Below are positions 32,694 to 56,947 of a DNA stretch of 64,000 nt, in pieces. Source of the DNA: Nitrospira sp. (GTDB taxonomy: Bacteria; Nitrospirota; Nitrospiria; Nitrospirales; Nitrospiraceae); the NCBI GenBank assembly GCA_036984305.1, contig BQWY01000001.1, forward strand, positions 3,121,501 to 3,185,500. Direction: 5' to 3'. The notes below the pieces were generated by a model that ran no database searches, had not been told where the DNA came from, and saw nothing but the letters and a program-made list of their open reading frames with translations. Within the stretch, counting starts at the first letter, position 1, and each line of letters begins with the position of its first letter. The position numbers and the translations under genes are program-made.

Positions 32694-32737
32694 CGCTGTG
32701 CTCCTTGGGTCGACTGCTGATGGGGCATGCAAAAACG

Positions 32738-32754
32738 GTGGTGTCCCCAACGGG
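32738..32754 (+). repeat. left attachment-site repeat (attL)
   Basis: Sequence GTGGTGTCCCCAACGGG, identical to the 3' end of tRNA-Glu at 56869-56885. After this repeat the sequence diverges at once from tRNA (TACATCTC instead of ATTCGAAC), as expected for the island-borne half of an att site. Confidence 0.85.
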
Positions 32755-32818
32755 TACATCTCAAAGGGGAACCACCCCTTTCACCTTCGAGATCGACGTG
32801 ATTGTGAAAGTGGCGTGA
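32755..32818 (+). other. predicted displaced 3' end of the recombinase gene
   Basis: When the two island ends are joined at the 17-bp repeat, the recombinase frame (codon boundary at 56869) continues here for 21 codons, reading GTSQRGTTPFTFEIDVIVKVA before a TGA at 32816-32818. In the integrated state it has no start and is silent. This is a deduction from the frame, not a known annotation. Confidence 0.55.
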
Positions 32819-32864: not shown

Positions 32865-33305
32865 ATGGATAACAGAATGGCTTCCAACAATAGCGAACGC
32901 AGACCGCATAAGATGAGCCCCCGTCTCACCCTTTCCCCACGGCGCAACCACATCACGCAGAAAGTGAAAATCGCCGGCCAGCGCACGCTCTACATCAGCG
33001 TGCATGACAATGGCCAGCCGGCAGAAATCTTTCTCCGACTCAAGGGACCGGACTGCTCGGCCGAATTGATCGGTCTCTACGACGTAATAGCCCGCCTGGC
33101 GAGCATCGCACTCCAACACGGCGCTTCCCTCGAGAAGGTCGGTGATCTCCTTAGAGGCGCCCAATTTGCTCCATCAGGCCCGGTCTCTGGCCATGAGCAC
33201 ATCAAACACTGTCTTAGCATTCCGGACATAATCGGGCGGCATCTCCTTGTCGAGTTCTGTGGACGAAATGATTTGGCTCACAGGGAGAGGCAAATGGCTC
33301 TATGA
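32865..33305 (+). CDS. stand-alone TSCPD-domain protein
   Basis: A 146-residue protein whose residues ~35-125 match the TSCPD domain, a module normally at the C-terminus of B12-dependent ribonucleotide reductase (NrdJ) and as small proteins in phages and mobile elements: LYISVHDNGQPAEIFLRLKG, ELIGLYDVIARLASIALQHG, LEKVGDLLRGAQFAP and IKHCLSIPDIIGRHLL. The two conserved Cys of NrdJ-type redox tails are not at the end here, so it is not simply a split reductase tail. RBS AGGA 7 nt before the ATG. First gene inside the island; its stop overlaps the next start (ATGA). Confidence 0.75.
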   Translation: MDNRMASNNSERRPHKMSPRLTLSPRRNHITQKVKIAGQRTLYISVHDNGQPAEIFLRLKGPDCSAELIGLYDVIARLASIALQHGASLEKVGDLLRGAQFAPSGPVSGHEHIKHCLSIPDIIGRHLLVEFCGRNDLAHRERQMAL

Positions 33306-38583: not shown

Positions 38584-40668
38584 CTCACGCGCGCAGCTCT
38601 GTAGGGTCTGGTAGATTGCGGCCGCTTCGTCGAGATGCCCGGTGGTCTGCAGCAGTATCCCGACAGAGTATAGGAAGATGGCACTCCTCCCCTCCCCGAC
38701 TTGTTGGCCGACCGACCGATAGGTCTCCGTCATCCGTTCGGAGGACTGCTGCTCCAGCCTGGCCCAATAACGCCGGACTTCATGCTGGTTGGCTGCCCAC
38801 GCCTTGATGAAAAACAACTCGCTGCCCAACAAGCGTGCCAACTGTCGCCATTGCTTCGCTTCGGCGAGCTGCCAAGGCCTTTCGTCGAGATGACGCGCCG
38901 TGAGCGGTTGCGCGGCAAAATAGGCGGCCAGCTTGCGATGAGCCACCTGCTGGTGCTTCGCTGTGGGTAAATAGGCCTCTTGCACCGCCTCGCGGAGGTA
39001 GTCATGGGCAAAGGTAACGAGCCCGGACCGGCTCACGAGGCCGAATTCCGCCGCGAGCAAAAACGGCGTGAAGATCGCCTGGGCAAGCGGGCCACCCTCG
39101 GACCCCAAGAGTTCGCGCCATTCGGTTTCCGACAAACCTCGCCGTGCGCCCCACAAGAGCGAGAGCGCCCCGCCCACCAGCTTTGTGTCTCCTTCATAGT
39201 CCTGTTCCCATCTTGCCAGCACCTTGCTGTACAACTCAGGAATCGATGGCGCGGCGAGATAATGTTCGATGGTCGGCTCCAGGGTCTCGTGCGAGCCGTG
39301 CAGCCGCAACTCGTCGAGCAGGATGCGCAGATAGAGTGGGTTGGCCGCTTGAGACGCTTTCGCGATTCTGGTTATCCGAGCCGGACTCAAGGACTTGGTA
39401 TATTGGGAAAGATACTGCGTAATGAGCGTACGGCGTTGGCTGTTTTCTAACGGCTGCACGGTGACGGTCGGCCAGCCCCGTTTCGTGAGATTATCCAGGG
39501 CGCGCCCGGGCAGTGTGGAGAACATCATGCGCACATTGGCCGGAATCATCGGGGGCAACCAGATCAGATCGGGGGCGCCGTCGCGATCCTCCAACTGATT
39601 GAGGGCATCGAGAATAAGGATAACCCTGCCCTTGGCCGCGGCGCGATGGAGCCAATTGGCAAAGGTACCGCGCAATGCCATCGGGTCGGTCGGGATCTCC
39701 TCGCGAATGTCATAGCGCCGTTTGAACTCGCCGAGGATGCGACGCAGCATGGCCGCCCAATCGGCGCTGTAGGGAGTGGCACCAATGAAATGGATGGCCA
39801 TACAGATATCGGGATGGGCTTTCTGAAAACGGAGGAACCAGTTGGCGAGCAGTGCGGATTTGCCGCTGCCAGATTCGCCCACGACGACCAGCGGCGGCCC
39901 ATCTCCGGCCACATGGGCGTCGAGCCGAGCGATATCGTCCTGCCGGCCGATATAGACCCTGGTTCGGCTTTGGGCGAACGCCTCGTGGTCTTGCGCATCC
40001 CGATCCAGCGGATCGAGGTCTGAGCCTTCGGGGAACACCCGATCGATCAGCGCGGTGAAGTCGTCGAGAATCCAGTCTCCGAGCGTTTGAGGATCGGGAT
40101 AGGGCTCGCGGACCCTGCACACGCCATCAACCTCGGCCTGCCGCAGCCGTTGCTTGAGAGTCTGCAGTTTGGCGTAGGCCTCTGGGGCCTCGCTCTCGAA
40201 CTCGCTGCGTGCGGCTCCCGGGGGCAACCGGCCCACATAGCCCGGATCCCGAAGGTAGAAGTATGCCTGTCCCGATTCAGGGTCCGACAAGCGCAGGCCT
40301 TGCAGGATTTCGAGCTCGGTGACCGAGCGGCCAGTCTGGTCCCGCACCCAGGGCTGTTGCTCCAGCAGAGCTTCAGGGATCGCATCCGGTATCCATCCGT
40401 AGCGCTCCCCGAGAAGCCCAATGAAGAACGGTCGGCAGCGTTCGACCTCGTCCAGGCAGATGGGTAACAACTTGTGTTCTGCCTGTTCCTCATCGGTCAC
40501 CCCCCAGCGAAGATCCACCTCGCCCCAGACCACGCCGCGCGATTCGCACCGCTTGCGCAACTGCGGAAACGTGACTTTGACAAGATAGTCTCGCTCGGCC
40601 TTCATGTCGCGGAAGGTGGACGAGACGAAGACGCGAATGTGGCGCTCGATGCGTGGCTGTTTGATCAT
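36904..40668 (-). CDS. DUF4062-NTPase-TPR (STAND) protein, C-terminally truncated
   Basis: A 1254-residue cytoplasmic protein. Residues ~10-95 are a DUF4062 domain (RVFVSSTFRDMKAERDYLV; PFFIGLLGERYGWIP), as in NPHP3/TEP1-type proteins. A P-loop NTPase follows: Walker A GESGSGKS at 264-271, Walker B VILILDALNQLED at ~349-361, then a helical/winged region to ~690. Fourteen near-identical 40-residue TPR units end at the stop. STAND proteins of this build act as oligomerising sensors in bacterial conflict and phage defence; DUF4062 would be the signalling module. The gene once continued to 36363; the fortieth codon of unit 14 is now TAG. It may still work without the last domain, or be decaying. 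Start ATG 40668. Confidence 0.85.
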   Translation of the reverse strand: MIKQPRIERHIRVFVSSTFRDMKAERDYLVKVTFPQLRKRCESRGVVWGEVDLRWGVTDEEQAEHKLLPICLDEVERCRPFFIGLLGERYGWIPDAIPEALLEQQPWVRDQTGRSVTELEILQGLRLSDPESGQAYFYLRDPGYVGRLPPGAARSEFESEAPEAYAKLQTLKQRLRQAEVDGVCRVREPYPDPQTLGDWILDDFTALIDRVFPEGSDLDPLDRDAQDHEAFAQSRTRVYIGRQDDIARLDAHVAGDGPPLVVVGESGSGKSALLANWFLRFQKAHPDICMAIHFIGATPYSADWAAMLRRILGEFKRRYDIREEIPTDPMALRGTFANWLHRAAAKGRVILILDALNQLEDRDGAPDLIWLPPMIPANVRMMFSTLPGRALDNLTKRGWPTVTVQPLENSQRRTLITQYLSQYTKSLSPARITRIAKASQAANPLYLRILLDELRLHGSHETLEPTIEHYLAAPSIPELYSKVLARWEQDYEGDTKLVGGALSLLWGARRGLSETEWRELLGSEGGPLAQAIFTPFLLAAEFGLVSRSGLVTFAHDYLREAVQEAYLPTAKHQQVAHRKLAAYFAAQPLTARHLDERPWQLAEAKQWRQLARLLGSELFFIKAWAANQHEVRRYWARLEQQSSERMTETYRSVGQQVGEGRSAIFLYSVGILLQTTGHLDEAAAIYQTLQSCARELGDPAGLSRPLGNQALIHQARGDLEGAMRLLKEVERLCRNLDDPAGLQASLGNQALILRARGDLNGAMRLFKEQERLCQKLGDPTGQQVSLGNQVLIFRTRGDLDGAMRLCKEQERLCQELGDPGGLSRSLGNQALILQDRGDLDGAMQVHKEEERLCRELGDPAGLSRSLGNQALILQARGELDGAMRLCKEQERLCRELGDPMGLQVSLGSQALILQERGDLDGAMQLHKEEERLCRELGDPAWLSRSLGNQAMILQARGELDGALRLCKEQERLCRKLDDPVGLQASLGNQAVILQARGELDGALRLLKEVERLCQELGHPAGLQRCLGNQALILRARGDLDGAMQLHKKEQRLCRKLGDQKGLSHSLVNQALILQECGELDGALRLLKEVERLCRKLGYPKGLQASLGNQAVILQARGDLDEALRLFKEQERLCRGLGDPAWLQRCLGNQALILRARGELDVALVLFKEQERLCRKLDDPAGLRRSLWNQAQILQARGDLDGALQAFKEQERLCRKRGDPEGLRRSLWNQAQILLARGDLDGAMRLFKEQECLSG

Positions 40669-41161
40669 GCTTTACCTCTCGGCTTCGGGGCATCTGACCG
40701 ATTCTCACCGCCGGTGCCGAGGCGATTTCAGCGAGCCTCACTCCCACCGGTGAATGTATCTACAAACTAGGCAAATCCCCGTTCTCTTGCGATTCCAGTC
40801 GAGGTGATCAAAACGCATGCGACGACTTTCTGCGATGCCCGGTCTTGTAAGAAACAATGCGGCTGTATTCGCGTATTGAGGACGACATCTCATTTATGAG
40901 CGTTCTCCGCTGTCATGAAGCGAAGGCCTAATCAGGCACTGCTAGCGCGCGGTAAGATTGGCCCTATATTTTTACTCTTGAGCTAGCCCAGGCTTGACGC
41001 ACACCTCTAGGAGACAGGCTGGACCCCGGGGGAGGTGCCCAATGGGACAACAACGTCGATTCACACCGGAGTCCTAAGTCTATCGTCATTCCTATTCCCT
41101 AGAGCGCCACGTCGCATCCGCCCTATATGACTAGAACGCTAATTGAAATATTCTCATTGAT
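40669..41161. other. intergenic region, no gene seen
   Basis: About 490 bp between two minus-strand genes. It is upstream of the STAND gene and downstream of the metalloprotease, with base composition falling toward the metalloprotease side. A short inverted stretch (CTAGCCCAGGCTTGACG) is not strong enough for a terminator. No coding frame of note. Confidence 0.4.
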
Positions 41162-44100
41162 TCAAAATCCGAACGAATTGATTTGCCCACAGAAGCGTGT
41201 ATCCATTCCCGTTAGATGCATGCAAATGCCTCGCTCCATGATTTGGAAATCGGATCCAGCTGAAAAGTTCAAATCAAATACCCCGTCCACATAAGGAAGA
41301 AATCCAATGGCCCCATTACTTTTGACTGCAGCCCCCTTTAAGTAGGGAAAGGCAGGATCGGAGTACAACACAAAACCACCTTCTTCGCCCTTTAACACTC
41401 CATACCAAGCATGGCCAAATCGTCCCGCTAACACTGTAGGGAACCGAAGGTGAAGATGAGGCGGGTGGTTAATGTCCACGATATCTGAAATCCAGATGGA
41501 TGCAACCTCCCCCTCATTATCGGCTCCGTAGACTAACGTAAACTCTCCTTTCAAGGGATGGAGAGGTCGACCGTTAGCAAGGAGGATCGGGTGGTAGGCA
41601 AACCCCATACGGGTGTGGATTAATCCTGTGGGACGAGTTCCAAAAATTACTGATGTCATATCACGCCAGAGATTTGCTTCGCGGTCATGTGTGTATATGC
41701 GTATGCGCGACTCATGGTCCGCCAGTGCTAACCAGCTTTGTTTGTTAGTGCTACTTGACGAATCCTCCCCCCAAAACGCCAAAGAGGGGGCAGTTCCATT
41801 GCCCCGGATGGCCCTTCCCGCAATATCATGAACCGTTACTGCGGAGGTGAAATCATTAGGTGTCCTGTCTAACTCAACCCGTGCGTTCATTAATTCTCTG
41901 GTCACTCGATCTGACCAAATGGCCAAAACCACCCGTGCAATACTTCCTTGAGTTCCATCTTGTGCATAGTGAAGATTTAACGTTGGGGCTTGATCAGCCC
42001 GACTTCCAGGAATGATCCCTTGGGGCTTCCATAAGGAAAGTCGGCCATTAGACAGCTGGCCCTCAGAGACGAGTACATGGATTCGATCAACATTCGGCTT
42101 CGTGTAAGTAACGTACATGCGGTTGTTTGCTGAAAAGACACTTACACTCTGTACGAAGCCAGTTTCAGGAATAGTTGAATCCGGTTCCCACTCAGTACAT
42201 CTCGCCTCCGGTCCCCCCCCGCCTTTAAACCCAAGTGGACATCCACTGGTGGGCCATTGTATGCCTTGTAAGCCCCAGCGATATTTGATTTGACCGGCTT
42301 CATTGATATAGAAGAGGTATAAGTAATCTCCCATTCGAGCTAGACTTGGGCTTTTCCCACTGGCGAGAACTTCAGCGTCACGACCATACCGCCCTTGTAT
42401 GTGTGTGTCACAACCCAGAGAACTCAGGTCACCGAACCAATTAACCCGAGCACGGACAGATTGAGAGCAAGCCTGAATAACACCATCTCGGTTCCAATCC
42501 ACCTGACTCCCTACGGTAGGAATGCCAAATCCAGCAAGATGGTCTACTTTGCCACCTGCTAATCCCGCAGCTTCGCACAGGTGTGTTGGGTTGATTACCA
42601 CCCCGGGAAATTCAGTTCCATCTGCAAATCCCACGTCACCCCAGGGGCCGGATGAAGATTGCCCGGCATAACTCATGATAGAAGGGTACACCGTGGAGCA
42701 GTTTATCCCGAGCGGCGCACTTGCACTCCCTCCCTCATGTACTAGCCCCAACACGTGCCCCAGTTCGTGCACAAACGTACGAACATTATTTCGAGGGGCC
42801 CCACCAGCTGGACTAGCTCCAAAAGCATCATTGCCCAATGACTGCCCACCTGTATGTAATATGGCATGGAAAAAGAGTTTTCTTCGTTCGGGAGAGTGAT
42901 ACAACCGTTTATTCGAGTCATTTTGGTCAATTCGGGTTGATCCACCCCAATCCCCGAATAAAGTTTGATTGCCTCTATTCTGTGGAGAAAACCCCATGTC
43001 CAAATGAATAGCAACTCCGCCACGATTATCTAGATTATGCAGGTCCCGCGCGCTCCCCGTTTTGAAGTAATCGCGAATCGCTTCCGCATCAGCTTCCGTC
43101 AAAGGCATATCTGGATACAGCGTTGTGTAATCTACTTCCACAAACACATCCTTGTGAATTGGGCTTGCTCCCCAGCGCGGCAAATATTGAGGAGGGTCCA
43201 CTTGGAGTCCGAACACCTCCCATAGGTCTAGAAGGCCATCTCGGTCTGAATCCTGAAGATTGTGAATGGTGACACACTGTGATTGAGCAAACCGTAAGTC
43301 ACAGGAACCCAGTTCACTTTCGAGTCCAAACCCCAGGCCATCCTTATCCTGATCATTGAATACATCGTTAGCATACAAAAGGCATTGGCCTGATTCTTGG
43401 GTAGCAGAACCAACAACAATTTGAGCGATCCCTGCTTTACTCGCTATCCTTGAGGAACTACCCACGCCCGAATTGTCGTCAAAGGCTATCAGACGTCCCT
43501 GGGAATCCAACCCGAGTATGCGGGTATCTGAAATTCCTCCCGAGCTAAGAGCGGTTTCGTACACGTAATTCGAACTCTGGCCAGAAGGAGGCACATTCAC
43601 AACCGTGCCGCCGACTTGAAAAGGCGAAACCATTTCACTAACTACTCCATCTTCTCGAATGATCAATTTAGCTTCCCCTGGTGAAGTAAATTGCTTGGTA
43701 TGAACAAACAATGTATGCCACCCCCCAGCCCTTTCCGGGACGGTATAGCGAAGTTCTGAATAGTTTCTATTCTGAGGTCCTCGATTGAAGGCCACATCCG
43801 CGCTCTTGCTCCTGTTCCATAAGTGCAATACAGGCGCAAGGCTTTCGCTTAATCCTGCTATTTGAAAAGAGTAGGTCTTCCCCCCTGCTAGCCAAACCCC
43901 CTTATGAATCATTGGGCTCACGAGTAACGGCCACCGATAAGGGCCATCTGCTGCATAAAGCCATCGTTGGTTGGGGCCGTCATGACACGACCAATGCTGT
44001 ATCCTCAGTCCATCAATTGGTTGGCCGCCTGGAACATCAAGGCATTTACCAGAGTGTCGGGAGACGATCCGCACGCCCCCTAAGGTGTCATTGATCGGTT

Positions 44101-44482
44101 CAAAACTAAACAACTGATTATCTTGTCCATGACATCGATACTGTTGAAGACCTCCGTCGTTTGCGCCTCCCACTCGAACATCGAGACAATGGTTACTGTT
44201 TTCATTGCGAATTAAGAAAAACCCAGGAACATTCGATCGTTCCTTTCGCCAACGCTGGTTTCCACCTCCATGACAACGGTATTGATTGACATCGGCTGCG
44301 GGTAATCCGCTCCCATCTGCAACATCCAAACATTTTTCCGTCGTCAGGCTTACGATCGGAGCACCGACATACCCCAAGGCGGGAAACGGGAAGAAGGAGA
44401 CGGAGCCAATCAGCCAAAGGACGAGCGTCCCCGCGAAAACTGCTTCAACTTCGTAAGCATTTCTCTCCTGTACACGAGGCAT
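41162..44482 (-). CDS. exported ricin-lectin zinc metalloprotease
   Basis: A 1106-residue secreted protein. Residues ~15-38 form a signal peptide or anchor (VFAGTLVLWLIGSVSFFPFPA). Residues ~40-170 are a ricin B-type lectin with three QxW-like repeats (NQRWRKE, NQLFSFE, NQRWLYA) and KCLDV motifs. A beta-rich segment follows, then DSDRDGLLDLWE (calcium-binding type) and a metzincin-like catalytic site HELGHVLGLVH (about residue 570) with a Met-turn candidate SIMSYAG. The last ~400 residues contain repeated beta-strand blocks like a propeller. GC is clearly lower (about 47% in a sampled 60 bp) than in neighbours. A longer start at 44572 lacks an RBS. Probably an extracellular glycan-binding protease. 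Confidence 0.82.
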   Translation of the reverse strand: MPRVQERNAYEVEAVFAGTLVLWLIGSVSFFPFPALGYVGAPIVSLTTEKCLDVADGSGLPAADVNQYRCHGGGNQRWRKERSNVPGFFLIRNENSNHCLDVRVGGANDGGLQQYRCHGQDNQLFSFEPINDTLGGVRIVSRHSGKCLDVPGGQPIDGLRIQHWSCHDGPNQRWLYAADGPYRWPLLVSPMIHKGVWLAGGKTYSFQIAGLSESLAPVLHLWNRSKSADVAFNRGPQNRNYSELRYTVPERAGGWHTLFVHTKQFTSPGEAKLIIREDGVVSEMVSPFQVGGTVVNVPPSGQSSNYVYETALSSGGISDTRILGLDSQGRLIAFDDNSGVGSSSRIASKAGIAQIVVGSATQESGQCLLYANDVFNDQDKDGLGFGLESELGSCDLRFAQSQCVTIHNLQDSDRDGLLDLWEVFGLQVDPPQYLPRWGASPIHKDVFVEVDYTTLYPDMPLTEADAEAIRDYFKTGSARDLHNLDNRGGVAIHLDMGFSPQNRGNQTLFGDWGGSTRIDQNDSNKRLYHSPERRKLFFHAILHTGGQSLGNDAFGASPAGGAPRNNVRTFVHELGHVLGLVHEGGSASAPLGINCSTVYPSIMSYAGQSSSGPWGDVGFADGTEFPGVVINPTHLCEAAGLAGGKVDHLAGFGIPTVGSQVDWNRDGVIQACSQSVRARVNWFGDLSSLGCDTHIQGRYGRDAEVLASGKSPSLARMGDYLYLFYINEAGQIKYRWGLQGIQWPTSGCPLGFKGGGGPEARCTEWEPDSTIPETGFVQSVSVFSANNRMYVTYTKPNVDRIHVLVSEGQLSNGRLSLWKPQGIIPGSRADQAPTLNLHYAQDGTQGSIARVVLAIWSDRVTRELMNARVELDRTPNDFTSAVTVHDIAGRAIRGNGTAPSLAFWGEDSSSSTNKQSWLALADHESRIRIYTHDREANLWRDMTSVIFGTRPTGLIHTRMGFAYHPILLANGRPLHPLKGEFTLVYGADNEGEVASIWISDIVDINHPPHLHLRFPTVLAGRFGHAWYGVLKGEEGGFVLYSDPAFPYLKGAAVKSNGAIGFLPYVDGVFDLNFSAGSDFQIMERGICMHLTGMDTRFCGQINSFGF

Positions 44483-45158
44483 GTTGAACCTCTTAACCAA
44501 AAGAAGGGATAGGTTTTGTTCCACAGAGGAGTCCGAGCACGTTGCCTCCTCCCTCGAGAAGGTCTTACTCAAATCAGCCCACGTCTTTCGCGATGGGGCT
44601 CGTCAAGACCAAAAAGGCACCCGGCTCACAGGTGCTCAAGGCATCGGTAAGGTCCGCAATATTGATGCCGTCTGCGCAACCTTGCGGCGAGCGACTAGCT
44701 GCTGGAGCGATGTGCTAGTAATGAGAAGGACATACGTTGACACGGCTGGGCGGAGGCATCGAGATCATGCTAGAAGAATGCCTAGGTACAGCGCGATACA
44801 GAGATGTATCTGACCGGATACGCACTGCGTTACAGTAGTATCCGATGAGATACATGGCTGCTTCCGTCGTTTCTGGGGGAGACGTCACAACCCAGCGTGC
44901 ATCTCGGCGATGGGCGATAAGATTGACTCGTAATTGAGTGGGCAGTCAGCCAATGCTGGTTCAATGGCCGCTTTAGAGCCGCACAGCGAACTGGACTGCA
45001 GAGGGACGAGCATGAGGGTCTTCGATGTGTAACTGGATCGATTGACGGATTCCTGCTCGATGAACGGCCCGCACTCCGCACCAGTAGTCTTTCAGCTATC
45101 GAGCCTCATCACGATCCCCTCCCCGCCGAAGAGACCATGGATGAAGATGAACAGGCTG
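44483..45158. other. intergenic region, no gene seen
   Basis: About 680 bp upstream of the metalloprotease and downstream of the membrane-protein gene. A 110-codon frame at 44481-44813 (plus) begins inside the metalloprotease start and has no coding character. The metalloprotease promoter should lie here. Confidence 0.4.
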
Positions 45159-46793
45159 TTAGGGCATCGATCCATGCCCAATCAGTCGTTGTAAGGATTC
45201 ATACAGGGCGGCGAGCTCTGTTGAGGATTGTCTGGCGAGGTGCCTGACCTGTAGCGGCTCGGCGTCAGCCTTTCCGCAAGATCGGGCTTGCTGCCGGATG
45301 GTTTCCTCAAGCAGCGACTTATTCGTGGTGTGATCGACGACCAAGAGGGTCCTTGCCAAAAGCTCCTGGGCAATGAGTTCTTGAAGCTCGAACGAGCATC
45401 CCGAATTGCTCTCGCTGAAGCCGCGCAGGTCCATCAGCACCAGATCGCTCCCCTCCAGCAACATGGTGAGCGTATGGCGCCAGGTATCTTCCCGGCAAAA
45501 GAATTTGGTTGTCCGATAACGGCCGTCCGGGTCCTGTAACCCGTCGATGGCGGCGGTTGCCTGCCGTCCCTGCTCTTCATCCGCGATGAAGCGGCTACTC
45601 AAGCGGCCGCTCACGAAACTGATGACGTCTCCGGGATTGACGGTCCGCATCGCGAGGTCACCGCCCGCGATCATCATGACCGGTCCCACAAACCGCCAGC
45701 GCTCGGCGACGGAGTCGAACAACACTTCAGTCCTGTGCTGAAAGCCGAACACACGCAACAGGAGAAGAGTCGGCCCGCGGTGGCCCCTCGGAAGCCGGAA
45801 GACGCGCAATCCCAGTTCCACGGTCCCGCGATAGCCGACAAAGGCGAGGAGGCCGGCCAGTCCAGCCCAGCCGAAATCACTTGCGAGCTGCGAGCTGAAC
45901 TGAAAGCTGACTATCAGCCACCATGAATCGATTACGAGCTGCACATCGCTGAAACGCTTCCGCTCGTACCAGGACGCCAGTTGGCGTAGACCAACCCAAC
46001 AGCCGTATCCGATCGGCAGCGCGGCGACGAGATACCAGAGGGCGTACGCCCGTGAGCCGCCAAACAGAAGCCATGCGGCCTTGGGATTGGCTTGGAGCGC
46101 GGCGAGATAGAGGTCGCGCGCGAACAGCGAGCCGAAACTAAACACGAGGAGTCCGGCCATGACGAGGGGCGAGACAGGACGGAGGCGCCGGTTGCCCGTC
46201 ACCAGGATGATGAGGTACGGGAGCCAGAACACTTGTCCCAGGAACTGAAGAAAGTATCGAGTGTTCTTCAGTGGCGAGGTATCGACATGCCCGAGAATGG
46301 AGGATGAGAACCATGACCATCCGCCGACGAGGACTGCTCCAAGAAGCAGGTAGAGCAGGAGAAACAGGATGTTGCGGTGCTGCGGCAGCGCGAGCAGGAT
46401 CACAGTAATTGGAACGACGGGCCAGGCATAGCTATACCAACTGACGAAGGCTCCCAGCAGGCTGAGATCGAACTTCATCGAGAGCGCGAACAGGAAGGCC
46501 ATGAGAAAGGCGGCGACAAGGCTCGCCAGCCCATAGACAAGAACCAAACGCCGCTTGGTTGCCGTGACTGACTCCGTGGGTGTGCCATCGGAGCTGTGCA
46601 TCAAGGCCCGGTTGTCGGCTTGTAATTCTGTCTTAGCTGCAACAAGCGGTCTGGCGATGCCGGCCCCAACCTGCCGCATGCTGCGCGAGACGGCCCGCCG
46701 GTATCCGGCAAGCAGGACCAGTGACGTTGGGACCGTAATCAGAATGGCCTCCAAAAAATACATCCATAATTTGCCGGGCGCTTGGCCTGTCAT
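45159..46793 (-). CDS. polytopic membrane protein with cytosolic effector-like C-terminal domain
   Basis: A 544-residue protein. The first ~350 residues hold about nine hydrophobic helices (YFLEAILITVPTSLVLLAGY; LASLVAAFLMAFLFALSM; FLLLYLLLGAVLVGGWSWF). The soluble last ~190 residues form an alpha/beta domain with ERWRFVGPVMMIAGGDLAMR, PGDVISFVSGRL, REDTWRHTLTMLLEGSDLVL and MDLRGFSESNSGCSFELQEL. The D-LVLMDLRGF...-G-x-x-FEL arrangement recalls TIR or nucleoside deoxyribosyltransferase-like Rossmann folds, but I cannot assign it. It starts at 46793, 104 bp from the divergent gene at 46898. A membrane-linked signalling or effector role is inferred. Upstream frame to 46955 overlaps that neighbour and is rejected. 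Confidence 0.7.
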   Translation of the reverse strand: MTGQAPGKLWMYFLEAILITVPTSLVLLAGYRRAVSRSMRQVGAGIARPLVAAKTELQADNRALMHSSDGTPTESVTATKRRLVLVYGLASLVAAFLMAFLFALSMKFDLSLLGAFVSWYSYAWPVVPITVILLALPQHRNILFLLLYLLLGAVLVGGWSWFSSSILGHVDTSPLKNTRYFLQFLGQVFWLPYLIILVTGNRRLRPVSPLVMAGLLVFSFGSLFARDLYLAALQANPKAAWLLFGGSRAYALWYLVAALPIGYGCWVGLRQLASWYERKRFSDVQLVIDSWWLIVSFQFSSQLASDFGWAGLAGLLAFVGYRGTVELGLRVFRLPRGHRGPTLLLLRVFGFQHRTEVLFDSVAERWRFVGPVMMIAGGDLAMRTVNPGDVISFVSGRLSSRFIADEEQGRQATAAIDGLQDPDGRYRTTKFFCREDTWRHTLTMLLEGSDLVLMDLRGFSESNSGCSFELQELIAQELLARTLLVVDHTTNKSLLEETIRQQARSCGKADAEPLQVRHLARQSSTELAALYESLQRLIGHGSMP

Positions 46794-46897
46794 GGCGTAT
46801 TCTCGAGTCAGATGAGGTACAGTCCGGTGATCATGTGCCTGCCAGAGGTTCGGATCGCCACAGTTGAAAGCCGTGCGATTCCCTTGCTGAGAGACTG

Positions 46898-47659
46898 ATG
46901 GCACCTTCGTCGACCATGAAGACCCGCATTCGTGGACTCTTCCTGTTTCTCGCAATCGTCTGGTCCATCGCGCTTGCCTTCCTGCTGCTCGAAAACTACA
47001 GCCAGGAGCTGGTGGATTGGGCCTTCAGGTCCGGCACAATTACAGCCGACCTCGGGATGCCAAGAGCGTCACCGGAGGTCGTGGCCAAGTGCGCCGCTGC
47101 GGTTCGAGCTGCGATCGAGTCGGAACAGGTGGATTTTGACCGTAGGGAGTTGCAACTGGCGAAGCTCGCAGCCTGGAAAATGGGATATGGCTTTGGTCTT
47201 GCCGTTGGGCTTGGACAGGCAGGAGCCCTAGACGTAGTGCAACGGAACGAATCCTTGCGCGTCATCGAACCCATGGTCCAGGCGCTGCGCGTGCCGGCTC
47301 CTTTGCCTCCGGCCTTGGCAACCTCAGTGACCGGACTACCCGAGTACGGACAATCGATTGAGGATGATGCGACCTGCACGGCTTTGTTCCTCGAAGAGCA
47401 GTATGGGGCGAGCGTCCGTCACATCTATCAACTCGGTGCGTTAACGAGTTTTGCCGCCGTGTACCGGATCGCCTGTCCCCAGTGCGGCGTGCTGTTCGTG
47501 CCGCAGATCAGCCACCATGCCAAAGCAGCTGGCCTCCCGGAAGAAGCGTGGCAGGCGTTCGCACAGTTCCCTCCGAACGTTCCGAACATGGAGGCGCGAC
47601 GCAAAAAAGCTACTGAGATCGCCCAAGGCCTGGAAGAGTTCATCAAACGAATGGAATGA
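46898..47659 (+). CDS. membrane-anchored protein of unknown function
   Basis: A 253-residue protein with an N-terminal transmembrane helix (LFLFLAIVWSIALAFLLLE, residues ~14-32) and an extracytoplasmic-looking helical domain. Cys residues occur as ATCTALF and IACPQCGVLF, the latter a CxxC. Much of the sequence is Ala/Leu-rich helix (VVAKCAAAVRAAIESEQVDF; GYGFGLAVGLGQAGALDVVQ). No family recognised. Divergent from and close to the large membrane protein gene, so shared regulation and joint function are likely. GAGAG precedes the ATG; the second ATG at 46916 is an alternative start. Confidence 0.6.
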   Translation: MAPSSTMKTRIRGLFLFLAIVWSIALAFLLLENYSQELVDWAFRSGTITADLGMPRASPEVVAKCAAAVRAAIESEQVDFDRRELQLAKLAAWKMGYGFGLAVGLGQAGALDVVQRNESLRVIEPMVQALRVPAPLPPALATSVTGLPEYGQSIEDDATCTALFLEEQYGASVRHIYQLGALTSFAAVYRIACPQCGVLFVPQISHHAKAAGLPEEAWQAFAQFPPNVPNMEARRKKATEIAQGLEEFIKRME

Positions 47660-48071
47660 GCAACGGGATGATGTGAGCGGAAGGCTAGGCAAGGAAGGGA
47701 AACGTGTCAAGTTGGGGCAGGGGGAATTGGAGTATTACCGGGTAAAGCTAGCAGGACGGGCCTGGACTCAAATGCGCGAGAGGATTGATGTAGTGCTCGA
47801 AAGGCGAGTTCCTCATTATATCCAACTTGCCTTCGAGCAACCTCCTAGACCTGGTGAGTGTCCAGGCTCGGGTGGGCAATGACCGACCGGTCGTTGCACG
47901 CAAAGATGCCAGGTTCAGCAGATGGCAAAGCTGAAGACACCCGATGAACCAATACCGTGCGTTGCGAAGTGCGCTACAGTTGAATTGTCTCGTCATGCCC
48001 GGGTGTCGGAGGTCCTGACCTCAAGCTGAGCGACAAAGTCTGTAGCCACATGGCTTCCTCAAGACGATCGC
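47660..48071. other. convergent intergenic region carrying palindrome copy 2
   Basis: About 410 bp between the ends of the 46898 gene and the FxsT-like gene. Apart from the palindrome at 47876-47897 I see nothing coding; a 143-codon frame over 47451-47882 mostly overlaps the previous gene and is a shadow. Confidence 0.4.
47876..47897 (+). repeat. island palindrome, copy 2
   Basis: GCAATGACCG, AC, CGGTCGTTGC: perfect inverted repeat apart from the central two bases and the fifth and eighteenth position. Flanked by GGTGG and ACGC. It lies downstream of two convergent genes, so it is not a promoter operator at this place. Confidence 0.72.
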
Positions 48072-51000
48072 CTAGGCTGAGCTCCTTGTATTCTCCATCA
48101 AGGAACGAACGGTGTCGATAATCTCGGACTCCGTCTTATCCAGTAATTGGAGAAGGTCCTTGTAGTTGTTCAGAACAGTCTGTGAACTCGGATGCTTGGT
48201 TCCCAAAGTCACAAGGAGCGAAGTTAGCGCCCGCTCGTAGAGCGGCTCGGCCTTCGGGTAGGCGCCCTGGGTGCGGTAGAGTTCCGCCAGGTTATTGAGA
48301 CTCCTCGCCACGTCGGGATGCTCGGGCCCCAGTGCGTGCTCGTAGATGGCGAGCGCCCGCTCGTAGAGCGGCTCGGCCTTCGGGTAGGCGCCCTGGGCGC
48401 GGTAGAGTTCCGCCAGGTTATTGAGACTCCTCGCCACGTCGGGATGCTCGGGTCCCAATGCCTGCTCGCAGATCGCCAGCGCCCGTTGGAGGAGCGGCTC
48501 GGCCTTCGGGTAGGCGCCCTGGGCGCGGTAGAGTTCCGCCAGGTTATTGAGACTCCTCGCCACGTCGGGATGCTCGGGCCCCAGTGCGTGCTCGTAGATG
48601 GCGAGCGCCCGCTCGTAGAGCGGCTCGGCCTTCGGGTAGGCGCCCTGGGCGCGGTAGAGTTCCGCCAGGTTATTGAGACTCCTCGCCACGTCGGGATGCT
48701 CGGGTCCCAATGCCTGCTCGCAGATCGCCAGCGCCCGGTGGTAGAGCGGTTCGGCCTTCGCATAGGCCCCCTGGGTGTGGTAGAGCAGTGCCAGGTTATT
48801 GAGACTCCTCGCCACGTTGGGATGCTCGGGTCCCAGTGCGTGCTCGTAGATGGCGAGCGCCCGGTGGTAGAGCGGTTCGGCCTTCACATAGGCCCCCTGG
48901 GTGTGGTAGAGCAGTGCCAGGTTATTGAGACTCCTCGCCACGTCGGGATGCTCGGGTCCCAATGCCTGCTCGCAGATCGCCAGCGCCCGTTGGAGGAGCG
49001 GCTCGGCCTCGGCATACTGACCCTTGGCATAAAGCAGCAACCCAGCTTGACTCATCAATAGAGCCGTGGGCTCTCTAATGCCTGCCGCATCAGCATGCGC
49101 AGAGACCGCTCGCACGTGCGGAAGCAAAGGGGCCAGCATTGGCCAGTCACCTGGATTCGTGGGATCGAATCCCGCGAACGCGGTATCGAGCCAGTGTAGA
49201 ACTTCGAAGAGCCCGTCCTGTTCGCGATCTTCACGCATGCTTCGACGCGTGACCTCCTGCACCAGCCGATGGACGGTAAAAGTGGGGCTGCCGACGGCGC
49301 GAGCTACCAGCGAATAGGACTCTAGTTCAGCCAGAGATTCGAATGGATCGACTTGTCCCTCGCCCCCGGGTATTGACACCTCCAACAGGGATTCGGGGAT
49401 TGGATCGGGCGCGATCCAGGCCAGACGTCGCAGTAGGTGCTTGGCTGAAGCCGTGAGCCTGTCAAATGATGTCTGCCAGCTAATCGCAATGGACTGGGGG
49501 TACTGCATGAGGCGCCCGTCATACCAGGTGAGTACCTTGTCGCGCTGGCTTTGCCAATGGACCAGATATTGATCAAAGCTCAGGCGCCGTTGTGCGATAT
49601 AAGCGCTGGCTTGTTCAAGTGCGAGAGCCAGGCAACCCAGTTTGTCCGCTAGCACTCGCGCGGTGTCGGGATCGGCGGGGTGTTTGCGCCGTTTCGCATC
49701 GGTGCGGGCAAGAAGGTAGTCAGTTGCAGCTTCGGGGGCTAGAAGATCCAGCGCCACCGGCGCAAGGCCGGCACTCCAATCAGCCAGCCGGCTTGTGATC
49801 AATAGATGGCCGCCAACGAGTTGCGGAAGCAGAGCTTCAACCGCGGCGGCAGCCGGTTTCGAATCGACTTGGTCGAAAATCAACAGCCAGCCAGAATGTT
49901 GCCGCAGCCAGTGCAGTACCGCCTCGTACTGTTTGACTTCTTCCCCTTCCAACTTCTCAGGGATATTCAAAACATTCGGAGCGCTTAGAGCCGCCACACC
50001 GCTCCGTAAGGCCTCTGCACTGTCGGCACGAACGAAAAGCAGCGCGGTGTAGTCATCGGCATGCCGCCAGGCATACTCAAGCGCGAGCCGCGTCTTGCCA
50101 ACACCACCTAGGCCGATCAAGACTCGGGCCTCGACGGAGGTGGTGTGGCTATCCGGGATCGGGCCGAGACTTTGGCCGAGGTCATTAAGCGTCGCCTCAC
50201 GGCCCTTGAAGAGCTCGCCGAGGCTGAGAAAGGGAAGATTAGCCGGCCTAGTTAGCGGAGTATCAAGCTCAAGGATATCTTGCAACTCGGAGCGCAAAAC
50301 CTCGATCGCCAGACTGTTGGATGAGGCAAAGCGAAACGGATAGCACTCTACCTCGGCGAGGCGCTGCAGATGCGCCTGCTGTGCGGCGCGCTGCTCCGGG
50401 ATCAGTTCGAAGCGCTCATCGCGCGGCGCATTGTTGTCCGGTGCACCGATGACGAGCGGTTTGCCGTGGTAGAGTGCCAGCCAGGCCTCCCATTGGGTGT
50501 AGGACAACGCCGGGGCCTGGGGGGCGAGGAAAGGCGCCACCGGCGCGAGTTTCTGTCCCAGGTCGGGATAATACTGCCGAATCACTGCCAGCGATGATGC
50601 CTGGGCCAGCGGGCCGGTCATATCTCCTACAATGTGGATGACCGCGTCGCACTGTCTGATATAGTCGTCCAGCAGGTCCAGCGTTTCTGTGCCAGTCACG
50701 ATGAAATCTTCCTGCACCGCGATCGAGATGTTTGGGCGTGTGAGGGTGCGACGCAGCACCTCGCGGTAGCTGCGGAACTCGGCGCTGACACAAGACAAGA
50801 ACATTTTTCTCTGCGCCTGGCTCGCATGCCGTTTGCTCCAGAAGTCTTCGCTGATCTTGATGAACTTTATCTCTTCAACTGTGAATAAAGGTGCGTGGGC
50901 AACGAGCAGTTGTTTAGCTTCCTGTGATACGGGGCGCGCAAGTAGCAGACTGTCGGGTCTGCCATTGCGTTGCCAGTGCTCGAATGCCGTCTGTATCCAA

Positions 51001-52412
51001 TCGCGCTGTTCCAAGACGACTTTTTCCTCAGCGGCCCAGTCATTGATCTGCCGCCAGCGCGCAAGCCAATCCCCGTCTGCTAGCTTCACCGCCAAGCTGC
51101 TGCTGCTCTCCTTAACTTGAACCTTGCGAAGAACACTGGCCCTAACGAAACGTTCCATTAAAGATCGCTCTTCTGCCGACACGTGCTGAAGTGGCAGCAG
51201 GAGGCGTTTGAGACCAGGCGCTTCTTGACCTCGAGGCACGCGCACCAGACGTAGCAGCAGGCGCTTAGCCAGGTCGAGTTGCTCCACAGTGAGCTGACCC
51301 AGGACCGTGTTGGCACCGCGCAGCAACGCGTCCATCTGGCTTTCCTCTATCTTGGGGGTCTGTGTGGTCGCGGCCGCCTCAGCCGACAGTTCCTCCACTT
51401 GCTCGTAAGCATGCACCAGTTGTTGCTTTTTATCGGGTGCGAGCGGCAAATCGTAGCGACTAATATCGCCATCCGTGACGTAGGAGGCTAGACGCAGGAC
51501 TGACACCATGGGCAGCTTTGGATCATCAGGATTAAAGATCAACGGCGAAAGTACTTCCTCGTAGTTCAAAAAGGCGTTATAGGGCACCTCCACACCGGCC
51601 CAATAAGCGTTATGCTCACTTTTCTGCAAATCTTCGAGCAGGGGAGCGAACAACTTCCGAGCAAAAGCCTGGCGCCGCTCGAGTTTAAGAACCTCGAAGG
51701 GGTCGGCTCGCGAGGGGACGGGAAATACTCGGAAAGTTTCGTTGGAGAATTGGCCATAGTCGCGCCTGCGTATTTCTATAGCTGACCGGGCGACCGCAAG
51801 AGCGCCGTGGATGCTCTGATTGTTATAGGTAAACATGATGACCAGGGTGTCGGGCATCTGCACGGTGCAGATACCTGCGGTGTCGCTCACCCCAGTGCGA
51901 CTATCAATAAGGACGTAGTCATAGTCTCGGCGCAGGCGCTTTTTGATCGCCTCGAGGAAGGCACCGCCTCCGAGGCGCTCGTAGAACGTATCCCAGTCGA
52001 AGGCGTGCAGTTTGGTGGCATAGGCAGGCCCTTGCCTGCCAGCTGGCACCAAATCAATGCGTCCTCCTTCGGGAAAGCCGTCAAAGTTAATACCCTGCAG
52101 ATAGGGAGAGAGATCGGTTAGCGACTGGTACCAATTATCCCCCTCGTCTCCCTCAGGCGGCTGGATTGCCTGGTCGGAGTAGTCCACCAGCAGGTCGATC
52201 AGGCCGCGGGAGGTGGCCAGTTCCTTGTCTGCCAGAAAGGGATGGAAGTAGCGGTGTAGCCCAGGTGCTTCCAGATCCCAGTCCACAATTAGGACGCGCC
52301 TTCGGTTCGCGGCCAGCACCCAAGCCAGATTGGCCAACGCCATGGAGCGGCCGGTGCCACCCTTGTACGAGTAGAAAGTGAAAATGCGGCCGCCACCGAT
52401 CGGACTACTCAT
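48072..52412 (-). CDS. FxsT-like multidomain STAND protein (ParA, nSTAND1-like tail, DUF4062-like, NB-ARC, TPR)
   Basis: A 1446-residue protein. Residues ~8-330: MinD/ParA-type ATPase with deviant Walker A YKGGTGRSMALAN, VDWDLEAPGLHRYF and DSRTGVSDTAG. Residues ~365-535: helical tail as after nSTAND1 NTPases (WLARWRQINDWAAEEK; AFEHWQRNGRPDSLLLARP). Residues ~535-715: DUF4062/TIR-like domain (RKMFLSCVSAEFRSYREVL; TLDLLDDYIRQCDAVIHIVG). Residues ~730-1100: NB-ARC NTPase with P-loop GLGGVGKT (767-774), Walker B LLIFDQVDS, then a helical/winged part. Residues ~1110-1420: kinesin-light-chain TPR array. This matches FxsT of actinobacterial FxSxx-COOH loci. Its ATG lies 8 nt inside the FxsC-like gene, so the two are made together. 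Likely a sensor/regulator for the TIR partner. Confidence 0.85.
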   Translation of the reverse strand: MSSPIGGGRIFTFYSYKGGTGRSMALANLAWVLAANRRRVLIVDWDLEAPGLHRYFHPFLADKELATSRGLIDLLVDYSDQAIQPPEGDEGDNWYQSLTDLSPYLQGINFDGFPEGGRIDLVPAGRQGPAYATKLHAFDWDTFYERLGGGAFLEAIKKRLRRDYDYVLIDSRTGVSDTAGICTVQMPDTLVIMFTYNNQSIHGALAVARSAIEIRRRDYGQFSNETFRVFPVPSRADPFEVLKLERRQAFARKLFAPLLEDLQKSEHNAYWAGVEVPYNAFLNYEEVLSPLIFNPDDPKLPMVSVLRLASYVTDGDISRYDLPLAPDKKQQLVHAYEQVEELSAEAAATTQTPKIEESQMDALLRGANTVLGQLTVEQLDLAKRLLLRLVRVPRGQEAPGLKRLLLPLQHVSAEERSLMERFVRASVLRKVQVKESSSSLAVKLADGDWLARWRQINDWAAEEKVVLEQRDWIQTAFEHWQRNGRPDSLLLARPVSQEAKQLLVAHAPLFTVEEIKFIKISEDFWSKRHASQAQRKMFLSCVSAEFRSYREVLRRTLTRPNISIAVQEDFIVTGTETLDLLDDYIRQCDAVIHIVGDMTGPLAQASSLAVIRQYYPDLGQKLAPVAPFLAPQAPALSYTQWEAWLALYHGKPLVIGAPDNNAPRDERFELIPEQRAAQQAHLQRLAEVECYPFRFASSNSLAIEVLRSELQDILELDTPLTRPANLPFLSLGELFKGREATLNDLGQSLGPIPDSHTTSVEARVLIGLGGVGKTRLALEYAWRHADDYTALLFVRADSAEALRSGVAALSAPNVLNIPEKLEGEEVKQYEAVLHWLRQHSGWLLIFDQVDSKPAAAAVEALLPQLVGGHLLITSRLADWSAGLAPVALDLLAPEAATDYLLARTDAKRRKHPADPDTARVLADKLGCLALALEQASAYIAQRRLSFDQYLVHWQSQRDKVLTWYDGRLMQYPQSIAISWQTSFDRLTASAKHLLRRLAWIAPDPIPESLLEVSIPGGEGQVDPFESLAELESYSLVARAVGSPTFTVHRLVQEVTRRSMREDREQDGLFEVLHWLDTAFAGFDPTNPGDWPMLAPLLPHVRAVSAHADAAGIREPTALLMSQAGLLLYAKGQYAEAEPLLQRALAICEQALGPEHPDVARSLNNLALLYHTQGAYVKAEPLYHRALAIYEHALGPEHPNVARSLNNLALLYHTQGAYAKAEPLYHRALAICEQALGPEHPDVARSLNNLAELYRAQGAYPKAEPLYERALAIYEHALGPEHPDVARSLNNLAELYRAQGAYPKAEPLLQRALAICEQALGPEHPDVARSLNNLAELYRAQGAYPKAEPLYERALAIYEHALGPEHPDVARSLNNLAELYRTQGAYPKAEPLYERALTSLLVTLGTKHPSSQTVLNNYKDLLQLLDKTESEIIDTVRSLMENTRSSA
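48210..49010 (-). repeat. tandem 126-bp (252-bp higher-order) repeat array in the FxsT-like gene
   Basis: Six to seven 42-residue TPR units (pattern GPEHPDVARSLNNLAELYRA / QGAYPKAEPLYERALAIYEH). They alternate between two subtypes, one with LAICEQAL and one with LAIYEHAL, so the nearly identical DNA period is 252 bp. The two halves are close to identical at base level, which points to recent duplication. The last unit is degenerate. Confidence 0.88.
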
Positions 52413-53697
52413 TTCGCGGCTCCCTCGCACCCGGTCCCATAATGATGGGACGGCCTATGCCGCCTGGTACGTTTCGTACCGGGGCGCTACGGCGCATCTC
52501 GGCCTGAATTTGGTTGAGCACCGTACGAAGTGTGTCACGCAGTTCATCCAACGAGGCTACGTCTCTACAGTAGTAGGGGGAGGACTGGGCGTACTGACAG
52601 CGGAAGCGCAGCACGTCGCGAATCACCTGATCGACTCTAGACTTGTTGGCAGCCAGCTCAGGGTCGCGCGGGTTCCAGGGTAGCAACACAGCACAGTTGT
52701 TGAAGTTCTGCTCGTCGAACTCACGGAATATTTCCTGATAATCTGGGCTAGCGTAGAGGGACCAGCGGTCTACAAACACAACCACTGGCTTACCTTCCTT
52801 GAAGGCAGCGCGGACTTCATCTGCCAGCCCCTTGGAAAACTGGGCCTGGTCACTGTCAAAGTCCAGGTCAGCGTCAGAAACGATGTGGGCGGCCAGCGCC
52901 CCGATGCGTCGCTGCAGGTCCGGGTAGAAAGGCTTCCAGTCTGGGCCACCAGCGTCCTGGTAGGGATTACGGTTGCGACCGTCCGATAGGTGCTCCGGAT
53001 GAAGGGCAGCGAAAACAAAGCGCACATGCCGACGGAAACCCTGCCGCGCGGAAGCGTGAACCGCCGGTCTAGTCGCTGGCAGTTCTAGAGGGAACGCAGG
53101 GGCGATTTCATTAAGTGTGGGCATCGGGTTCAGGTGTGGCAGCTCCATCCCATCGAGCGCGTCCGTTATTCCCTGGGCAAAGCCGCGGACGAAATCCCAA
53201 TAGAGGTCGTTGTAGTCGGCCTTCTTCCGCACCATGTGCTCCAGGCCCTGTTGGTTGATGTGCGAATCCTCTTCACGCCAGGTATATTGCACCATTCTCA
53301 CCGCCGCGCTGACATAGTTGGGCAGGGCAAGTTTCTTGTCCTTGCGAAGGGGGATCCAAACTACTGGTCGGATCACCGCCGGCTGGATCCCACCGTGCAG
53401 TTTGGCGTACGCCTCGCGGCGAAGTTGGAAGCTCTGCCATTCCTTTCCACAATACTCGCTATTGAAATAGGCTGGTGAGTACAGGGGTATGAGCACACGA
53501 CTCTCCTGCATCGCGGCCAACAAGGCGTCATCCCAGTTGTTGCCCGTCTCGATGCTTTCCTGGTCGAAAAACGACAGATTCTCGTATTTACCCAAACCGC
53601 GCAATTTGCGCACTTCCTCACCAAGGTCACTGAGGAACTCACGCATGAATGGGCCGAAATCACTGCGGCGGTAGCTGAAGAATATTTCGTAGGGCAT
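52405..53697 (-). CDS. TIR-domain protein with FxsC-type C-terminal domain
   Basis: A 430-residue protein. Residues 1-~135 form a TIR domain: opening EIFFSYRRSD, box 2-like SFFDQESIETGNNWDDALL, and SPAYFNSEYCGKEWQ, where Glu86 holds the position of the catalytic Glu of NAD-cleaving TIRs (WCxxE). Residues ~215-400 match the FxsC C-terminal domain (RRHVRFVFAALHPEHLSDGR; WKPFYPDLQRRIGALAAHIV; KPVVVFVDRWSLYASPDYQE; DEQNFNNCAVLLPWN). In Actinobacteria FxsC is encoded with FxsT. Here it starts the unit: its stop overlaps the FxsT-like start. Predicted NADase effector or NAD-derived signal producer held in check by its partner; activity is inference. Confidence 0.85.
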   Translation of the reverse strand: MPYEIFFSYRRSDFGPFMREFLSDLGEEVRKLRGLGKYENLSFFDQESIETGNNWDDALLAAMQESRVLIPLYSPAYFNSEYCGKEWQSFQLRREAYAKLHGGIQPAVIRPVVWIPLRKDKKLALPNYVSAAVRMVQYTWREEDSHINQQGLEHMVRKKADYNDLYWDFVRGFAQGITDALDGMELPHLNPMPTLNEIAPAFPLELPATRPAVHASARQGFRRHVRFVFAALHPEHLSDGRNRNPYQDAGGPDWKPFYPDLQRRIGALAAHIVSDADLDFDSDQAQFSKGLADEVRAAFKEGKPVVVFVDRWSLYASPDYQEIFREFDEQNFNNCAVLLPWNPRDPELAANKSRVDQVIRDVLRFRCQYAQSSPYYCRDVASLDELRDTLRTVLNQIQAEMRRSAPVRNVPGGIGRPIIMGPGAREPRNE

Positions 53698-55242: not shown

Positions 55243-56910
55243 GTGATCGCCGCCATTTACGCCCGCAAATCCACTGAGCAGTACGGAGTCGCCGACGAGC
55301 AGAAGTCCGTCGCGCGGCAGATTGAACACGCGCACGCGTACGCCGCTCGCAAAGGCTGGACCGTGGGCGAGGCGTACGTGTATGCCGACGACGGCATCTC
55401 CGGAGCCGAATTCGTGAAACGGCCAGGTTTCTTTCGACTGATGAATGCCCTGAAGCCGTCACCTCCTTTTCAGGTTCTCGTCATGTCTGAGGAATCGCGG
55501 TTAGGCCGCGAATCCATCGAAACTGCCTACGCATTCAAGCAAATTATGGACGCCGGCGTGCGAGTGTTCTTCTACCTGGAGGACCGAGAACGCACACTCG
55601 ACAGCGCCATGGACAAAATGATGCTGTCCCTGGCTAATTTTGCCTCAGAGATGGAGCGAGAACGGGCCAAGCAGCGTACGTACGACGCGCTCTTGCGGAA
55701 GGCGAAGGCCGGCCAGGTTACCGGAGGGAAAGTCTACGGCTATAACAATCGTGACGTCCTCTCATCAGATGGGCACCGACTCTACGTCATGCGGGTGATC
55801 AACGAACAAGAAGCCGCGGTGGTTCGCCAAATCTTCGAATTCTACGCAGGTGGACTTGGGATTACGCGCATCGCGCGACAGTTAAACGATCAGCACCTGT
55901 CGGCCCCGCGACAGAGCCCGCGTGGATGGGCCCCGACGGCCATCCGGGAAATTCTTCACCGGACTCTCTATCGAGGCGAGGTTGTCTGGAACCAGTCACA
56001 GAAGATCATTCAAGGTGGAACCAAGAAGCGGCAGCGTCGGCCGGAGACAGAGTGGCTCCACGTCGAAGCGCCGGATCTGCAGATCATCCCTACACCGCTC
56101 TGGCAGACAGTCCAGGCTCGGCTCGCCCGCTGGAAAGGGCCTAGCTGCGACCGACAGAGACCGCGCCCAGCCCGCGATCTCGACTCCCCCTACCTACTCT
56201 CCGGGCTAGCCCGTTGCGCTCATTGCGGGGGACCGATTGAATCAATCGGACGGGACTACAGCCGACGCCAGGGTCGATTTTACGGTTGCGCATATCATCG
56301 CAAGCGTGGAAACGCAATCTGTTCACGAGCCTACCGTATAGACCAACAGCAGCTTGATCGCGTACTCCTCGAAGCGATCTGCCGAACCCTCGATGATCGA
56401 ATGTTGGAAGTGGCAGTAGAGAAGGCTCTGAGGGAGCTTAGGACGGGGCACAATGCACGCTGGGACCGGGAGACGGCCATTACACGGGAATTGTCCCTCA
56501 TTGAGGCCCACGAACGTAATTTGGTGAATGCCATTGCCGAAGGGCAGCGGGCAGCTCCCCTACTCGCCAAACTCCAGGAAGAAGAAGCACAAAAGGCAGC
56601 CCTCACGTGCGAGCTCGAACAGCTCACGCAAGGAGCAAAAGTGCTCCTATTAGACCAACGCCGACTGAAGCAGGAGCTGATGCAACGAGTCGCCGATCTA
56701 CGAGGGTTGCTTGAACGGCAACATGCTCAGGCCCGACGGATCCTGCAGACCTTGCTCGGGGGACCGTTGATGCTGGAGCTGACTGACGAGAAGGGAAAGA
56801 AAACCGTGCATGTAACAGGGGCAGGATCCTACCTCAAACTACTTTCTCCCTCCCTGGTTCCCCCAAGTGTGGTGTCCCCAACGGGATTCGAACCCGTGTT
56901 GCCGGCTTGA
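55243..56910 (+). CDS. large serine recombinase (island integrase)
   Basis: A 555-residue site-specific recombinase. Catalytic domain residues ~1-150: nucleophile Ser in YARKSTEQY, Arg-rich active site SEESRLGRESIE, and MMLSLANFASEMERERAKQR. Recombinase domain residues ~170-290 (GYNNRDVL; RQLNDQHLSAPRQSPRGWAP; REILHRTLYRGEVVWN). Zinc ribbon ~330-380 (LARCAHCGGPIES; RFYGCAYHRKRGNAICSRAY), then a coiled coil (residues ~430-510). GTG 55243 has RBS GAGGAGAG and begins the family's first strand; the frame upstream to 55168 is unlikely. The last ~14 codons are antisense to tRNA-Glu, so the C-terminus (VVSPTGFEPVLPA) is an integration product. Probably the enzyme that moved the island. Confidence 0.92.
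   Translation: MIAAIYARKSTEQYGVADEQKSVARQIEHAHAYAARKGWTVGEAYVYADDGISGAEFVKRPGFFRLMNALKPSPPFQVLVMSEESRLGRESIETAYAFKQIMDAGVRVFFYLEDRERTLDSAMDKMMLSLANFASEMERERAKQRTYDALLRKAKAGQVTGGKVYGYNNRDVLSSDGHRLYVMRVINEQEAAVVRQIFEFYAGGLGITRIARQLNDQHLSAPRQSPRGWAPTAIREILHRTLYRGEVVWNQSQKIIQGGTKKRQRRPETEWLHVEAPDLQIIPTPLWQTVQARLARWKGPSCDRQRPRPARDLDSPYLLSGLARCAHCGGPIESIGRDYSRRQGRFYGCAYHRKRGNAICSRAYRIDQQQLDRVLLEAICRTLDDRMLEVAVEKALRELRTGHNARWDRETAITRELSLIEAHERNLVNAIAEGQRAAPLLAKLQEEEAQKAALTCELEQLTQGAKVLLLDQRRLKQELMQRVADLRGLLERQHAQARRILQTLLGGPLMLELTDEKGKKTVHVTGAGSYLKLLSPSLVPPSVVSPTGFEPVLPA
56869..56885 (+). repeat. right attachment-site repeat (attR)
   Basis: GTGGTGTCCCCAACGGG, the reverse complement of the tRNA-Glu 3' end (CCA, discriminator A, acceptor strand and first T-arm bases), plus one base. 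Identical to 32738-32754. Confidence 0.85.
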
Positions 56911-56947
56911 AAGGCCGGCGTCCTAGGCCAGGCTAGACGATGGGGAC
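56870..56947 (-). tRNA. tRNA-Glu (anticodon UUC)
   Basis: On the minus strand: acceptor GTCCCCA pairs with TGGGGAC, D arm TCTAGCCTGGCCTAGGA, anticodon stem CCGGC/GCCGG around CTTTCAA with UUC at 56909-56911, T arm ACGGG-TTCGAAT-CCCGT, discriminator A and encoded CCA. Complete and apparently functional; its 3' end serves as the integration site of the island. Confidence 0.96.

Follow-up and report, generated by a model that had tools for sequence, protein, structure and literature searches.

An island bounded by a tRNA-Glu repeat

The window analysed here, a stretch of 64,000 nucleotides from a Nitrospira sp. genome, contains an island of 24.1 kb that is bracketed at both ends by a 17-bp repeat, GTGGTGTCCCCAACGGG, identical to the 3' end of a tRNA-Glu gene (Table 1). 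No further copy of this repeat (allowing up to one mismatch) was found beyond these two in the whole 4.35-Mb genome. The gene at the tRNA end of the island encodes a recombinase with matches above cut-off to the Pfam families Resolvase, Recombinase and Zn_ribbon_recom, and a PHROG match annotated as integrase. With a serine resolvase N-terminal domain, a recombinase domain and a zinc ribbon in one protein, it is assigned by its sequence to the large serine recombinases (LSRs), for which catalysis of attP x attB recombination is presumed.

As integrated, the recombinase ends in VVSPTGFEPVLPA, its last codons being antisense to the tRNA. When the two copies of the repeat are joined, the reading frame is kept and 21 codons are added, GTSQRGTTPFTFEIDVIVKVA, up to a stop at 32816-32818, and the rebuilt junction reads VVSPTG followed by TSQRGTTPFTFEIDVIVKVA and a stop. 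Both the antisense ending and the in-frame junction had been reported in a preliminary description of the locus and are confirmed here.

Table 1. Positions of the island, the recombinase gene, its attachment sites and the neighbouring ORF in the window
Feature	Position	Strand	Remarks
Island	32738-56885		24.1 kb
Large serine recombinase, integrated form	55243..56910	+	555 aa; GTG start, TGA stop within antisense of tRNA-Glu
tRNA-derived end of integrated form, past repeat	56886..56910	+	…FEPVLPA, stop
tRNA-Glu (TTC)	56870..56947	-	Integration target, left intact
att core copy, recombinase end	56869..56885		17 bp
att core copy, distal end	32738..32754		17 bp
Orphan native C-terminal tail and stop	32753..32818	+	GTSQRGTTPFTFEIDVIVKVA; from joined repeats and match to relatives
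Conserved part of orphan tail	32780-32815		FTFEIDVIVKVA
attP arm	56855..56863		TGGTTCCCC; 16-24 bp from core centre
attP arm, inverted partner	32766..32774		GGGGAACCA; partner of TGGTTCCCC
Predicted crossover dinucleotide AA	56880..56881, copy 32749-32750		Inferred from dyad centre common to relatives
Stand-alone TSCPD-domain ORF	32865..33305	+	Directly 3' of native tail

Outside the island, the left flank (32690-32754) reads SLGRLLMGHAKTVVSPTG up to the repeat and resembles the 3' terminus of a different LSR gene, as a comparison with L133 (…MIGRLLTGRTKEVVSPTG) shows. Because of this resemblance, an older island probably once occupied the same tRNA.

Recombinase tails rebuilt in relatives

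The preliminary description had considered a 21-codon extension in the right frame improbable by chance, an argument that does not hold. Given that 3 of the 64 codons are stops, about 38% of random frames would show no stop over 20 codons, and wrong frames in relatives can extend to about 60 codons before a stop. As judged by sequence comparison, what exceeds chance is the match of the tail to relatives, not the length of the extension. Homologues of the recombinase were sought in 396 genomes of the phylum and found in 27, most full-length homologues adjoining a tRNA-Glu, tRNA-Ala or tRNA-Met gene. Distal att copies were then located in these relatives and their flanks joined. At all 13 junctions available on a single contig (nine at tRNA-Glu and four at tRNA-Ala), reading on into the distal flank in the recombinase frame leads to a similar tail. 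Related islands of several bacterial groups share the arrangement. The tRNA-Glu tails so rebuilt are TSQRGTTPFTFEIDVIVKVA (G000), NRQTKEQPLGFTLDLIAMGA (G129), DRQTTERPLSFTIDLQVVAA (G123), IHQTTERPLSFTIDLLVVAA (G247), FSKEGNSNFCFSIDVLALAA (G141), VPSDKGALPEHPLRFTIELLVEAA (G277), DPSDKGASLEHPLSFKIELLVEAA (G321), FKEGWNTQTCFTINEFVAV (G253, whose recombinase has internal stops) and FKDFCNAAFGAWAIPFQGVVQAA (Nitrospira moscoviensis NSP M-1), and the tRNA-Ala tails, from islands of G129, G181 and G094 (two distal copies), follow the pattern SFKI.GVA.A.

Pairs split over contigs in draft genomes (G181, G373 twice, G406 and G397) also fit, and are counted outside the 13; the Neisseriaceae and G398 cases were too weak and were left out of the counts. 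In G397, the sequence L192 was considered as a contiguous native gene and ruled out by an in-frame stop upstream; L192 is instead an orphan tail from a distal end, in frame with the L113 recombinase when joined to it. As a control, joining ends of different tandem islands, for example at the outer copy in G247, does not keep the frame. The tail motif is absent from candidate distal ends in G404 and G405, from the outer copy G321a and from the tRNA-Met group, in which the G135 island (L085-L087) has a 19-bp distal repeat and an in-frame continuation, VAGEGLGHYLTPKTLRISLRPNL, that ends at a stop.

In several Nitrospira genomes (L044, L045, L062, L065, L041, L038), LSR islands are arrayed in tandem at a single tRNA-Glu, and at the between-island junctions of these arrays the frames of recombinase and tail are mismatched.

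The tails are conserved as protein. Over their last 13 codons, the changes at first, second and third codon positions number 31, 23 and 71, and codon changes are synonymous in 51 cases and nonsynonymous in 44; the corresponding numbers for the linker are 31, 30 and 22, with 8 synonymous and 47 nonsynonymous. Being pairwise and linked by common ancestry, these counts are indicative. Similarity within the tRNA-Glu groups drops to about chance past the stop codon, and across tails it mostly ends at the stop. With a profile trained on the tRNA-Glu tails, all four tRNA-Ala tails score higher than every random ORF end, the window's own tail excepted. This pattern points to a tail under purifying selection, although it would be untranslated while the island is integrated. 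An in-frame tail arising by coincidence, or from a DNA-level constraint on attP alone, would be compatible with the frequency of open 21-codon stretches and with the first part of the tail being an attP half-site. We nonetheless regard such an origin as highly improbable, as the ~25-bp half-site does not reach the conserved motif, which has a third-position bias and ends at the stop, and relatives between them read into the tRNA-Glu core in all three frames, each leading to the tail.

Contiguous homologues, attachment site and predicted structures

Contiguous forms of the gene were identified on virus contigs (L155-L160, L165) and in a Gemmatimonadetes MAG (L123), where they end in an xFxG...AA-like motif followed by the stop. 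The 1 kb downstream of them contains no tRNA gene, and several of these carry a tRNA-Glu-like core in the linker. The preliminary description expected homologues to end similarly to the rebuilt window protein, and the C-termini compared bear this out, including those of homologues without an adjoining tRNA gene. With a profile built from the contiguous natives the Nitrospira tails were not significant, and the resemblance is one seen by eye; the tails of N. moscoviensis (…IPFQGVVQAA) and G373 (…IPFQGFVKVA) link the Nitrospira and contiguous-native types. Single-protein scans of genome and viral contigs returned no match, alignment queries gave matches, and searches of plasmid and phage records yielded distant partial matches only. 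In one Nitrospira MAG (L009/L053, contig C48 of G317), the recombinase gene crosses the core without a break and enters a tail (VSPTGMNRICQQLSTAWEIPFKGIRR…) like that of N. moscoviensis; its end is apparently frameshifted, and there is no tRNA.

The putative attP has the layout expected of an LSR site, i.e., a length of about 50 bp and arms inverted around a short crossover, although the dyad centre is displaced by half a base in the window compared to most relatives. Inverted arms around a common core centre were recovered at 8 of 14 att sites. In the window the arms are 16-24 bp from the centre, a distance that matches the one reported for the LSR zinc-domain motif (PMC3783163).

Structure prediction covered relatives of the window's recombinase. 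Almost the entire length of these models can be matched to solved LSR integrases, including the LSR fold and a coiled coil between the zinc-ribbon parts. In the native L157 model, a disordered linker (558-570) is followed by a strand (574-581, pLDDT about 79), and the L156 model has a strand at 560-565 with low confidence; the alternating, strand-like ending guessed in the preliminary description fits both, weakly in L156 and better in L157. The flexible linker in these native models coincides with attP, with the terminal beta strand after it. Most solved LSR chains align only to about residue 555, i.e., to the hairpin before the tail, and on these models the C-terminal strand looks like an addition relative to solved LSRs, in a region barely probed by the structure search.

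Consequences of integration and related systems

We propose that attP very probably lies inside the coding sequence of its own LSR, with integration replacing the native tail and excision expected to restore the native gene. The site would sit in the flexible linker ahead of the conserved C-terminal beta strand, and recombination with the 3' end of tRNA-Glu would keep the tRNA whole while exchanging the last ~20 native residues for a short antisense-tRNA peptide; the native tail would then be stranded at the far end of the island, lacking a start of its own, until excision returned it to the gene. The preliminary description had likewise suggested that the native enzyme would be the product of the excised circle and an altered one that of the integrated island, and the similar in-frame tails of relatives favour this. 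Alongside the att copies, the in-frame junction, the protein-level conservation of the tail and the contiguous native homologues, all read from the sequences themselves, we infer that a circle forms, and a tail that is conserved but untranslated is evidence that the islands have kept excising and moving.

Directly after the native tail lies a stand-alone TSCPD-domain ORF, a candidate accessory gene. In G247, G277, G321 and G373, four islands in all, its start and the native stop overlap in the sequence ATGA; in the window it begins 49 bp past the stop. This ORF would adjoin the recombinase only in the circle, and would be separated from it by integration. It is related to vitamin B12-dependent ribonucleotide reductase and looks like a fragment of it (also L215, 290-733).

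Because the tail is conserved as protein, some state appears to need it, and we infer this to be the excised state, most simply for integration. One reading, which we find plausible at somewhat less than an even chance, is a switch or lock in which the native strand supports integration and its loss leaves an enzyme that is inactive or biased to excision. Selection on a tail that goes untranslated when integrated is consistent with such a role, as are the position of the modelled strand after the C-terminal hairpin, the parting of recombinase and TSCPD gene upon integration, and the setting of LSR direction by the coiled-coil arrangement on the zinc domain (PMC3783163); however, a separate directionality factor may sit among the small island genes. 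The other reading, rated about equally likely and itself close to an even chance, is that attP overlaps the gene end for compactness, a by-product tolerated because both forms would work about equally well. Integrated-form ends vary widely in length and frame among relatives, which argues that no particular replacement is selected, and the catalytic, recombinase and zinc domains remain intact; against this, the conservation of the native tail as protein implies a state that requires it. The hypothesis that tail loss lowers or redirects activity, so that integration stabilises or reverses itself, is evenly balanced in our view. It would be going further, and we think it unlikely, to regard the C-terminal strand as a built-in state sensor, whereby integration, in deleting the strand and parting the TSCPD gene, would impose a lock or excision bias without a separate directionality factor.

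Among known systems, the proposed exchange of the native tail resembles the archaeal suicidal (SSV-type) tyrosine integrases, in which the attachment site lies within the integrase gene, which is split into N and C parts that were inactive in tests (PMC8371274). As in these, the window recombinase has its att site in its own gene, which integration alters and excision would restore. The likeness is one of layout and not of membership, since its domains are those of a serine and not of an SSV-type tyrosine recombinase, and, unlike in the archaeal enzymes, the loss is confined to ~20 C-terminal residues, the catalytic and DNA-binding domains all being retained. With the phage large serine integrases (Listeria A118/LI, SPbeta, Bxb1, phiC31), it shares domains, fold and attP geometry. 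In those phages, attP is either located outside the coding sequence of the integrase or not known to alter it. In mycobacteriophage BPs, the system of integration-dependent immunity places attP in a protein-coding gene (PMC4557955). There too, integration changes the C-terminus of a protein. The gene concerned is reportedly the repressor, and the BPs integrase is said to be a tyrosine recombinase.

The arrangement looks like a new, bacterial serine-recombinase variant because a review describes recombinases that disrupt their own gene as exclusively archaeal, and no serine-recombinase precedent for attP exchange within its own gene was found in the literature covered, which was incomplete. Among bacterial serine recombinases, it would be a counterpart to the archaeal integrases that interrupt themselves. 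Recombinases of this LSR family, when sequenced from integrated islands, would also be expected to bear a wrong, tRNA-derived C-terminus, which matters for the cloning of these enzymes as tools, and the arrangement would offer natural isoform pairs for testing what sets serine-integrase direction.

Proteins encoded in the island's cargo (36904-53697) include two that are large, NTPase-like and TPR-containing, with DUF4062 regions, another that has a TIR domain, and one of the ricin-type-lectin kind that weakly matches a metallopeptidase. The cargo looks like that of a conflict or defence island, but PADLOC returned weak matches only for the cargo proteins tested.
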